From Rhodoplanes serenus (GTDB lineage: Bacteria > Pseudomonadota > Alphaproteobacteria > Rhizobiales > Xanthobacteraceae): a stretch of DNA of 64,000 bases. Where the stretch lies: NCBI GenBank assembly GCA_945897515.1, contig CAMDFO010000003.1, positions 50,777 through 114,776 on the forward strand, read 5' to 3'. Position numbers and translations under genes: made by a program. Under the pieces are notes generated by a model, which was given only the letters and a program-made list of their open reading frames with translations, had not been told where the DNA came from and ran no database searches. How positions within the stretch are numbered: the stretch's first letter is position 1; each line of letters starts with the position of its first letter. Below are positions 33,889 to 37,021 of the stretch, piece by piece.

Positions 33889-34614
33889 CTAAGCGCGGGC
33901 TCGCGCCAGAGGCAAGCTCGTTTCCAGCGGCTCGGCGACCACGACGTTACTATAGCAGGCCGCCACCGGCGCAAACGAGCGGCGATGATGGATGGTCGGG
34001 CCGAGGCGGGTCAGAGCGGCCTGGTGTTCCGGCACGCTGTAGCCCATGTGGCGCTCGAAACCGTAGCCCGGATGCGCAAGCCCCAGCCGCATCATCAGCC
34101 GGTCGCGCGTCACCTTGGCAACGATCGAGGCGGCGGCGATCGACAGCACCAGCGCGTCGCCGGAAATCACCGCCTCGCAGTCGCAGCCGGCGTCGATGCG
34201 GTCGCGACCGTCGACGAAAACCAGCTTGGGCCGCACCGGCAGCGCCCGCACCGCACGCGCCAGCGCCCACAGCGATGCGCGGAGAATGTTGTCGCGATCA
34301 ATGCGTGCGGTCGAGCCGAACGCGACCGCGACTTCGGCCGTGGCGCAGATTTTCAGATAGAGCTTCTCACGCTCCTCGCGGTCGAGCTTCTTGGAGTCGT
34401 TCAGTCCGCGCGGGATGCGATTGGGATCGAGAATGACGGCAGCGGCGACCACGGGACCCGCGAGCGGGCCGCGGCCGGCTTCGTCGCAGCCGGCGACCGG
34501 CCATATCCCCTTGTTCAGGGCGCGCCGTTCGCGCCGGAACGTCGGGCGAATGTCGGCGTCATCCAGCGGCAGGCGGCCGGTTCGGATGACGACTTTGCTT
34601 GGCGTGCGACTCAT
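33889..34614 (-). CDS. rnhB: Ribonuclease HII
   Basis: RNase HII cuts RNA in RNA/DNA hybrids and removes misincorporated ribonucleotides. The active-site motif [14 protein letters not shown] holds the first two acidic residues, and [10 protein letters not shown] and DGRD follow with the other acids. Its 241 residues are typical. It sits 75 bp after the VOC gene on the same strand, at the end of a run that starts with the LexA-boxed radical SAM gene. Cotranscription is possible but not shown. Confidence 0.95.
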
Positions 34615-34689: not shown

Positions 34690-35127
34690 TCATTCCGGCA
34701 GGATCAGCCGGCCATCGTCGGTGAAGGCGAAGCCGGGGGCCGTTACGACCTCCCAGGCATGGCCGTCGGGATCGGCGAAATAGCCGCGATAGCCGCCGTA
34801 ATCTGTCGGTCCGGGCGACAGCAGCGGCGTACCGCCCGCCGCCAGCCCGCGGGCATAGGCGGCGTCGACCTCCTCCGGCGTCTTGCAGTTCCACGCCAGG
34901 GTCGATCCGCGGAAGGCTTGCGGCCGCGGCTCGGACGGCACGGCCGCATCGGCGGCGAGCTTGTCCCAGCCCCACAATGCAATGACAACGCCGCCGGCGT
35001 CGAAAAATGCGATCTCGTCGCCGGTCGCACGCACCTTGCGGACGAAACCGAGCGCCTCGTAGAAGCGCGCGCTGACACCAACGTCACGCACGCCGAGCGT
35101 CACGACTGTGAGGCGGGGCTCGCTCAT
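34690..35127 (-). CDS. VOC-superfamily (glyoxalase-like) protein
   Basis: The 145-residue protein has one vicinal-oxygen-chelate module, starting LTVVTLGVRDVGVSARFYEALGF, with FADPDGHAWEVV near the C-terminus. Such proteins are dioxygenases, glyoxalases or resistance proteins; the metal site and substrate are not resolved here. The ATG at 35127 overlaps the radical SAM gene's stop as ATGA, so it is translationally coupled to the SOS-type radical SAM gene. Confidence 0.9.
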   Translation of the reverse strand: MSEPRLTVVTLGVRDVGVSARFYEALGFVRKVRATGDEIAFFDAGGVVIALWGWDKLAADAAVPSEPRPQAFRGSTLAWNCKTPEEVDAAYARGLAAGGTPLLSPGPTDYGGYRGYFADPDGHAWEVVTAPGFAFTDDGRLILPE

Positions 35128-36287
35128 CCGAACAGGCTGAGCTGTTCGGCGCGTGGGCGCGGCGAGACGAAATGCTCGGTGGTGAGCGAAGCCCGGTTCG
35201 TGTTGAGCCCCAGCTTCGCGCAGGCGGTCTCGAACCGGCGGCCGAGCATCCAGGCATAGGGGCCTGCGCCGGTCATGCGCTTGCCCCATTCGGAATCGTA
35301 GTCCTTGCCGCCGCGCATATCGCGAATGAGCTTCATGACGTGGCTGGCGCGGTCGGGATAATTCGCCTTCAGCCATTCGACGAACAGATCGCGCACCTCC
35401 AGCGGCAGCCGCAGCAGGACGTACCCCGCGCTCTGCACGCCCGCCAGCGCAGCGGCGTCGAGAATGCGCTCGATGTCCATGTCGTTGATCGCCGGAATGA
35501 CCGGCGCGACCATCACCGACGTGGGTATGCCTGCGGCGGACAGTTGCCGCAGCGCCTCCAGCCGGCGGCCCGGCGTCGCCGCGCGAGGCTCCATTGTGCG
35601 TGCCAGCTTGGGATCGAGCGTCGTCACCGAAATGGCGACCTTGGCGAGGTTGCGCTCCGCCATGCGGGCCAGGATGTCCATGTCGCGCAGGATCAGCGCC
35701 GACTTGGTGACGATGCCGACCGGATGGCCGGCGCGCTCCAGCACTTCGAGGATGCCGCGCATCACCTGGTATTTGCGCTCGATCGGCTGATAGGGATCGG
35801 TGTTGGTGCCGATTGCGATGGTGCGCGGCTGATAGCCGGGCGCCGACAATTCCTTTTCAAGGAGCGCTGGAGCCTCAGGCTTCACGAACAGCTTGGCTTC
35901 GAAATCAAGCCCCGGCGACAGGCCAAGATAGGCGTGGGTCGGCCGCGCGAAGCAATAGACGCAGCCGTGCTCGCAGCCGCGATACGGATTGATCGAGCGG
36001 TCGAAGGAAATATCCGGCGACTCGTTTCGGGTGATGATCTTGCGCGTGGAATCGACCGAGACCGTGGTGGCGAACGGGGGCAGCTCTTCCAGGCTCTGCC
36101 AGCCGTCGTCGAAGGCGATGCGGGCGATTGGCTCGTACCGCCCGGAGGCGTTGGAAAGCGTCCCCCGGCCCCGGCGGCGCTCGCTGCCAACGCGGGTCCC
36201 GAGAAGGCCGGTCCCAAAATAATCCCCCGCCGGCACGGAGGGCACCAATGCCGACGGGGTTCGGAGGGCTGCGGAAGGACGGGTCAT
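35124..36287 (-). CDS. PA0069-family radical SAM protein (SplB-like) with a C-terminal clamp-binding motif
   Basis: The radical SAM cluster motif is NPYRGCEHGCVYCFARP (CxxxCxxC). The following residues match the PA0069/SplB-like family, relatives of spore photoproduct lyase, which repairs UV-damaged thymine pairs. The last residues are EQLSLFG, which fits the QLSLF peptide used by many bacterial proteins to bind the beta sliding clamp. A LexA box lies 26 bp upstream of the start at 36287. Together these suggest a damage-induced DNA repair enzyme working at replication forks. No DNA substrate has been shown in this sequence. The 387-residue length is normal. Confidence 0.9.
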   Translation of the reverse strand: MTRPSAALRTPSALVPSVPAGDYFGTGLLGTRVGSERRRGRGTLSNASGRYEPIARIAFDDGWQSLEELPPFATTVSVDSTRKIITRNESPDISFDRSINPYRGCEHGCVYCFARPTHAYLGLSPGLDFEAKLFVKPEAPALLEKELSAPGYQPRTIAIGTNTDPYQPIERKYQVMRGILEVLERAGHPVGIVTKSALILRDMDILARMAERNLAKVAISVTTLDPKLARTMEPRAATPGRRLEALRQLSAAGIPTSVMVAPVIPAINDMDIERILDAAALAGVQSAGYVLLRLPLEVRDLFVEWLKANYPDRASHVMKLIRDMRGGKDYDSEWGKRMTGAGPYAWMLGRRFETACAKLGLNTNRASLTTEHFVSPRPRAEQLSLFG

Positions 36288-36312
36288 GGGGCGGACCGTA
36301 GCCTATGATTTA

Positions 36313-36327
36313 GAACAAAACAAGAAC
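36313..36327. promoter_or_regulatory. LexA (SOS) box upstream of the radical SAM gene
   Basis: GAAC-N7-GAAC (GAACAAAACAAGAAC) is the direct-repeat LexA box of alphaproteobacteria, read from the other strand as GTTC-N7-GTTC. It lies 26 bp before the radical SAM start codon at 36287 on the minus strand. Confidence 0.75.
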
Positions 36328-36388: not shown

Positions 36389-36441
36389 GTTTCCCAGGAG
36401 CGATGGCCGAGCCGCAAGGCTGGCGGCATGGAGGCGATGTC

Positions 36442-36723
36442 ATGAAAGCAATGTTGATGGCCGGTGCGTTGGCGCTGGCGACCGCGATGGGAAATGCCCA
36501 ACCGGTACAGGCCCAGTTTGCCCAGGTCGAAGGCCCTTGGTGCGCCAGCATCATGGTCGGCGACGACAGCATGGTGCAACGCTGCGACATGCGCTCGTTC
36601 GAGATGTGCCGGCAGGAAGTCATGGGCCAGGGCTCGAGCTACTGCAGCCAAAATCCCTATTACCGCGGCGCGGCCGGGAGGGAGCCGATCAAGGAACCGC
36701 GGCGTCGAGCAAGGACCCAGTAA
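36442..36723 (+). CDS. DUF3551-family exported small protein (copy 1)
   Basis: The ATG at 36442 opens a 93-residue exported protein with a leader (MKAMLMAGALALATAMGNA, cleaved near VQAQFA). The mature part has EGPWCASIMVG, RCDMRSFEMCRQ and SYCSQNPYY, matching DUF3551 with its conserved Trp-Cys and four-cysteine pattern. Function is unknown; the cysteines probably form disulfides. A related gene follows after 31 bp, so this is a tandem pair. Confidence 0.8.
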   Translation: MKAMLMAGALALATAMGNAQPVQAQFAQVEGPWCASIMVGDDSMVQRCDMRSFEMCRQEVMGQGSSYCSQNPYYRGAAGREPIKEPRRRARTQ

Positions 36724-36754: not shown

Positions 36755-37021
36755 ATGAAACGCCTCGTATTGGCAGCCGGCATGCTCCTCGCCGCTGCGC
36801 TCCTCGGAGCACAGCCAAGCTTCGCCCGTTACGAGGGGCCGTGGTGTGCGCATATGAGTCTCGGCCGCGGCTTCGTCGACAATCGCTGCGACATGCGCTC
36901 GTTCGCGATGTGCCGGGCTGAAATTGCGGGTATCCCCGGCGCCTGGTGCAATCACAATCCCTACTTTTACGCCTCGGTCGAAGAACCGCGGAGCCGCAAG
37001 GCCAAGCGCCGGGTTCGATAG
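36755..37021 (+). CDS. DUF3551-family exported small protein (copy 2)
   Basis: The 88-residue paralog of the preceding gene starts at ATG 36755 with a GGGGAGAAAAGCG ribosome binding site. It has the same leader type (MKRLVLAAGMLLAAALL) and the pattern GPWCAHMSLG, RCDMRSFAMCRAE, GAWCNHNPYF. The C-terminal tail is basic (RKAKRRVR). The two copies look alike across the cysteine region but differ in leader and tail. Its stop is followed at 32 bp by the MarR palindrome. Confidence 0.82.
   Translation: MKRLVLAAGMLLAAALLGAQPSFARYEGPWCAHMSLGRGFVDNRCDMRSFAMCRAEIAGIPGAWCNHNPYFYASVEEPRSRKAKRRVR

Follow-up and report, generated by a model that had tools for sequence, protein, structure and literature searches.

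A conserved LexA box and a predicted beta-clamp-binding tail in the PA0069 family of radical SAM proteins

What might a radical SAM enzyme do if its gene lies behind a LexA box and its protein ends like a client of the replication clamp? This question is raised by a locus of Rhodoplanes serenus, which we analyzed within a stretch of 64,000 nucleotides (hereafter, the window). The gene of interest lies on the minus strand (35124..36287) and encodes a protein of 387 aa with the C-terminus PRAEQLSLFG. An initial annotation had proposed that this SplB-like protein may be an SOS-induced enzyme for DNA lesion repair recruited to the beta clamp, and had pointed to the repair of UV photoproducts by SplB relatives. 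The box and the EQLSLFG end on which this proposal was built were both confirmed in the window sequence. As a whole, the proposal retained its two sequence inferences, the LexA box and the clamp tail, but lost the photoproduct repair step.

The protein was assigned to the PA0069 family with the NCBIfam model NF033668, which it matches over the full model (positions 1-348) at 563.9 bits, above the curated cut-off of 360. PF04055 also matches the protein, and the solved structure nearest to its predicted fold is that of spore photoproduct lyase (SPL), 4fhc. NCBI's own label for NF033668 is "hypothetical equivalog", and we found no biochemistry for this family in the literature. Among 249 Pseudomonadota genomes sampled, 88 contained a family member over the cut-off. 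We assembled a family set of 217 loci, comprising 183 alphaproteobacterial loci (that of the window included) and 34 from other Pseudomonadota, and scored column conservation on 68 representatives, each with less than 70% identity. The cluster cysteines C105, C109, and C112 of the CX3CX2C motif (CEHGCVYC, residues 105-112) were invariant (68/68), as was the SPL-like tyrosine within this motif, Y111 (68/68). Nearer the C-terminus, an LxTxxFxxP element (residues 368-376; L368 90%, F373 96%, P376 90%) precedes the linker and may represent a packing or second docking site. A phage or plasmid origin of the gene was considered and rejected, as the high-identity plasmid matches were on megaplasmid-sized records and the phage matches were distant. 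We also noted that, on a conjugative plasmid of Runella (L223), the gene for a distant radical SAM protein overlaps a UvrD-helicase gene.

The LexA operator (SOS box) of the gene, GTTCTTGTTTTGTTC (36313..36327, minus strand), is an exact match to GTTC-N7-GTTC, and 25 nt separate it from the ATG. The bare number of such boxes is not significant, either in the window (2 found vs 1.7 expected) or in the whole genome (112 vs 80 for the reversed control). Upstream of the family gene, GTTC-N7-GTTC was present in 177 of the 182 alphaproteobacterial loci with enough upstream sequence, compared with 10/182 for the reversed control, and the box at this gene is therefore more than a chance occurrence. 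The alphaproteobacterial consensus is GTTCTTG[T/A]TTTGTTC, in which the seven inner bases, TTG[T/A]TTT, are conserved as well. Outside the Alphaproteobacteria this box was absent (0/33 loci), and the exact E. coli-type box, CTGT-N8-ACAG, occurred in 24 of 34 beta- and gammaproteobacterial loci vs 0/183 alphaproteobacterial loci, indicating that the box type tracks the LexA type. One further locus (L148) has TTAG-N6-TACT upstream of the family gene, which we take to be the Xanthomonas-type LexA site. Certain lineages carry the family gene with its tail and without a recognized SOS box; thus, the box and the tail are not strictly coupled. With a class-appropriate box located at the promoter and kept in relatives, we regard the in silico evidence for the SOS operator of this gene as close to proof.

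The genome encodes a LexA protein (TIGR00498, 185 bits, at C34) with a box of the same type, GTTCTATGTGTGTTC, upstream of its gene, and ssb of the same genome has a box of the same kind as lexA. The LexA regulon was examined at chosen boxes of this genome. Among them, a near-consensus LexA box, GTTCTTGATTTGTTC, precedes the start of a DUF5131 (Gp37/Gp68) gene (L232:1237-1989, minus strand) by ~12 nt, and a VOC/glyoxalase gene (L234:1462-1953, minus strand) has GTTCTTGCATTGTTC ~48 nt upstream. The latter is the second VOC gene besides that downstream of the radical SAM gene, and together the two suggest that VOC proteins may belong to this SOS regulon.

Three lines support the LexA control proposed in the initial annotation: the deep conservation of the box, its change of type from class to class, and earlier publications on splB-like genes. 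That splB/COG1533 genes are under SOS control was already known. The splB-like gene of P. aeruginosa is presumably PA0069. SOS regulation of this splB-like gene was reported by Cirz 2006, as cited in PMC8565304, and splB-like genes were predicted to be SOS-regulated in alpha- and betaproteobacteria (PMC3323433). SplB has additionally been placed with ImuB-C in an SOS context (PMC3765255).

A probable promoter was located at 36295..36323 (minus strand), consisting of a -35-like TTGTTT (36318-36323), a 17-bp spacer, and a -10-like TACGGT (36295-36300) that ends ~7 nt from the start codon. The TTGTTT element falls inside the LexA box, so that LexA is predicted to cover the -35 region. When the upstream regions of 12 relatives were aligned, the GTTC repeats were invariant, and elsewhere only the start codon and a T-A---T block were. 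This block lies 16-17 bp from the TTGNTT of the box in 80 of 181 boxes, while most other spacings were found 0-4 times; a second peak occurs at 23 bp (31 loci). The first in-frame start follows T-A---T by 5-7 nt in 113 of 181 cases, and the transcript may be leaderless. The predicted promoter was not among the results of a generic promoter scan.

Downstream, the radical SAM stop codon overlaps by 4 bp (ATGA) with the start of a gene for a VOC/glyoxalase-superfamily protein (34690..35127, minus strand; 145 aa; PF00903, 51 bits), which is followed by rnhB, encoding ribonuclease HII (33889..34614, minus strand; NF000595, 226 bits; PF01351). The initial annotation had named a coupled VOC gene and rnhB downstream. 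The VOC gene is contiguous here, but a VOC homologue follows the radical SAM gene in 51 loci only, whereas about 130 alphaproteobacterial loci (132) have rnhB downstream in the same orientation. The VOC linkage is lineage-specific and rnhB is the conserved downstream neighbor. No second LexA box was found within 400 bp after the radical SAM stop in the rnhB-linked loci, and rnhB may therefore be co-induced with the radical SAM gene. On the other side, two adjacent small paralogous ORFs (36403-36723 and 36755-37021, plus strand) run divergently from the radical SAM gene, with the LexA box in the intergenic region between; they have signal-peptide-like N-termini and share the pattern EGPWCA...RCDMRSF...CR...NPY.

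The codons for QLSLF (residues 382-386; 35130..35144, minus strand) specify a predicted beta-clamp-binding motif, identified from the translation and from family conservation. A QxxL[FLIW]-type motif was present within the last 30 residues in 181/183 alphaproteobacterial and 34/34 other loci (215/217 in total), compared with 29 of 2802 C-terminal tails taken from unrelated ORFs of these loci (~1%). For the strict pattern Q[LM]x[LM][FL], the counts were 169/183 and 14/34 vs 1/2802 in the background. Among the representatives, Gln382 is as constant as the cluster cysteines (68/68), followed by Leu385 (66/68) and Phe386 (53/68, with Leu in 11 more), while the linker columns 377-379 ahead of the tail carry little information (0.8-0.9 bit); the motif stands out above its surroundings, as would be expected of a beta-clamp client. 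QLSLF is the commonest variant in the family and QLNLF also occurs; in beta- and gammaproteobacterial members the second position is often not Leu (QGELF, QQDLF). The published clamp-motif consensus is QL[S/D]LF and the UmuC motif is QLNLF (PMC3716654). EQLSLFG is close to this consensus and terminal, in keeping with an accessible pentapeptide of a DnaN client. Residues 384-387 of the AF2 model have a pLDDT of ~47 and are not confidently packed on the core, and this low confidence suggests that the peptide is probably flexible. That it binds the beta clamp is a very strong prediction, and the family-wide survey of the tail, whose loss in homologs would have counted against the initial annotation, upholds it.

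Leu385 is encoded by all six leucine codons across the representatives, and the tail codons vary synonymously, indicating that the constraint acts at the protein level. A nucleotide-level constraint through the overlap with the VOC start was rejected on the same ground and because the ATGA overlap is found in only 4/68 representatives. We likewise rejected the tail as a general feature of neighboring genes, given that clamp-like motifs occur in 0/50 VOC and 2/121 rnhB tails. Genome-wide, a terminal QLxLF (followed by at most one residue and then a real stop) was found only in the radical SAM gene and in one 12-codon chance frame. The tail was not found in outgroup radical SAM proteins from Firmicutes, Bacteroidetes, Cyanobacteria, and archaea. 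The open-licence papers that we searched contained no report that connects the bacterial clamp with a radical SAM enzyme, nor one of a clamp tail in the PA0069 family, and as far as can be seen this tail is new.

We compared the protein with SPL using an AF2 model of moderate quality (pTM 0.71, 29 fairly close sequences). The top PDB fold match was SPL (4fhc; E 6.8e-8; TM 0.52/0.58), and every other radical SAM enzyme ranked lower, so that at the level of this moderate model the overall fold is that of SPL; SkfB, NifB, and MgmA also matched. The two proteins share the CX3CX2C motif and a T-D-P segment but are only 15% identical. The SPL models PF20903, TIGR04070, and TIGR03886 gave no match to the window protein at E<=0.001, and PF20903 was not found in the window's own genome. 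PDB sequence searches with the protein (phmmer and profile) did not find SPL, whereas the fold search alone did. Within the same order, true SPL homologs reach as much as 273 bits with PF20903 and match 4fhc at 7.8e-60, and those inspected (L251-L257), unlike the window protein, do not have the C-terminal clamp motif. In a profile alignment to SPL homologs, the H-donor cysteine of SPL (Cys140/141) aligned to T161, a column with Cys in 0/68 and Thr in 39/68 representatives. Because this catalytic residue is replaced, by Thr and others, the known SPL repair reaction cannot be transferred to the protein, and the label "photolyase" should not be assumed for the family. An SPL assignment by sequence was accordingly rejected, and the step in the initial annotation from SplB kinship to UV photoproduct repair was dropped. 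We describe the protein as having the predicted SPL fold without the defining catalytic residue and do not file it as a spore photoproduct lyase.

Several known systems resemble parts of this arrangement. UmuC and Pol II are under SOS control. These DNA enzymes dock via the same type of pentapeptide (QLNLF and QLGLF, respectively; PMC3716654), but they are polymerases, whereas the window protein would be a radical SAM enzyme. In archaea, NreB has a possible PCNA-binding PIP motif and its gene adjoins SplB-like genes (PMC4929162), which likewise links an SplB-like radical SAM gene to a possible clamp motif; there, a separate partner protein carries the motif and the clamp is PCNA, while here the enzyme carries its own motif, one that fits DnaN. 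The window gene is a full-length member of the PA0069 family, for which the literature found does not describe a clamp tail. The actinobacterial Rv2578c family (NF038135) is a sister family, to which the window protein scores 234.8 bits, below the cut-off of 430, and hence does not belong. All four Rv2578c-type members examined (L217, L218, L220, and L262) end in QxxL[F/L] (QESLF, QLRLL, QEPLF, and QLTLL), although this tail is attached to a different C-terminal region, and L218 and L262 have GAAC-N4-GTTC just upstream of the gene. Streptomyces venezuelae has a radical SAM gene, vnz_31145, that is listed as a LexA target with 20-fold induction under mitomycin C (PMC9380542); its link to the Rv2578c family is putative.

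The likeness to SPL raises the possibility that the protein is an SPL proper or a UV photolyase under SOS control, whose SPL mechanism would revert 5-thyminyl-5,6-dihydrothymine or a different UV dimer, with the tail as an accessory. Consistent with this are the nearest solved fold, the invariant SPL-like Y111 within CX3CX2C, and the name photoreactivation enzyme or photolyase that earlier authors gave to splB (PMC3323433). However, the failure of all three SPL models, of which PF20903 does recognize true SPL homologs in the same order, the 15% identity to 4fhc, and the complete absence of Cys from the T161 column argue against it, and the spore photoproduct has been described as a spore lesion (PMC4929162). 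We consider this reading improbable.

Alternatively, the protein could be a radical SAM enzyme that modifies RNA, protein, or a cofactor and belongs to the SOS regulon incidentally, with a tail that binds another partner or completes the fold. The chemical diversity of radical SAM enzymes, the additional fold matches (SkfB, NifB, and MgmA), and the family's hypothetical label, with no biochemistry found in the literature, leave room for such an enzyme. Nevertheless, the terminal consensus QL[S/A/D]LF is a known bacterial clamp motif with an invariant Gln, the boxes upstream of the gene are SOS-type and span several LexA specificities, the closest solved fold is that of a DNA repair enzyme, and the sister family Rv2578c repeats the tail, all of which render a non-DNA substrate rather unlikely. 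Chance has a negligible probability: GTTC-N7-GTTC and QLSLF are short, would be expected somewhere in any genome, and the box is not enriched in the window, but the family-wide conservation of both refutes it.

The best explanation, to which we assign a probability of roughly 0.7, is a radical SAM enzyme that is induced in the SOS response, tethered to the beta clamp, and active on damaged DNA where replication takes place. From the operator, the terminal motif, and the family assignment, we infer binding and induction through LexA, clamp binding, DNA as the substrate, and radical chemistry, as follows. LexA over the -35 region would hold the gene off, and DNA damage would release it through RecA-stimulated LexA cleavage. 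The product, a TIM-barrel-type enzyme, would use a [4Fe-4S] cluster and SAM to generate the 5'-deoxyadenosyl radical. QLSLF, on its short flexible tail, would dock in the hydrophobic cleft of DnaN and thereby bring the active site to DNA wherever clamps are loaded (forks, gaps, or patches), and there the enzyme would most likely repair or process a damaged base or cross-link. Because family members across the Proteobacteria retain both the operator and the clamp tail, damaged DNA at forks is the probable target of the enzyme, and lesion repair there its probable role. The lesion need not be the spore photoproduct, as the SPL H-donor cysteine is absent. A broader proposal, for which we see even odds, is that a widespread clamp-tethered radical SAM family reverses, at forks during the SOS response, a DNA lesion that is not the spore photoproduct and might be a different dimer or a cross-link, with the same design recurring in the Rv2578c family.

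To our knowledge, most SOS clamp clients described so far are polymerases or general repair factors. If our reading is true, direct radical-based base repair would take place at replication sites in non-sporulating bacteria. The PA0069 family is common, and the photolyase label that it often bears is at odds with the missing catalytic cysteine. With the terminal peptide, the long-standing question of the role of SplB-like proteins outside spores becomes testable.
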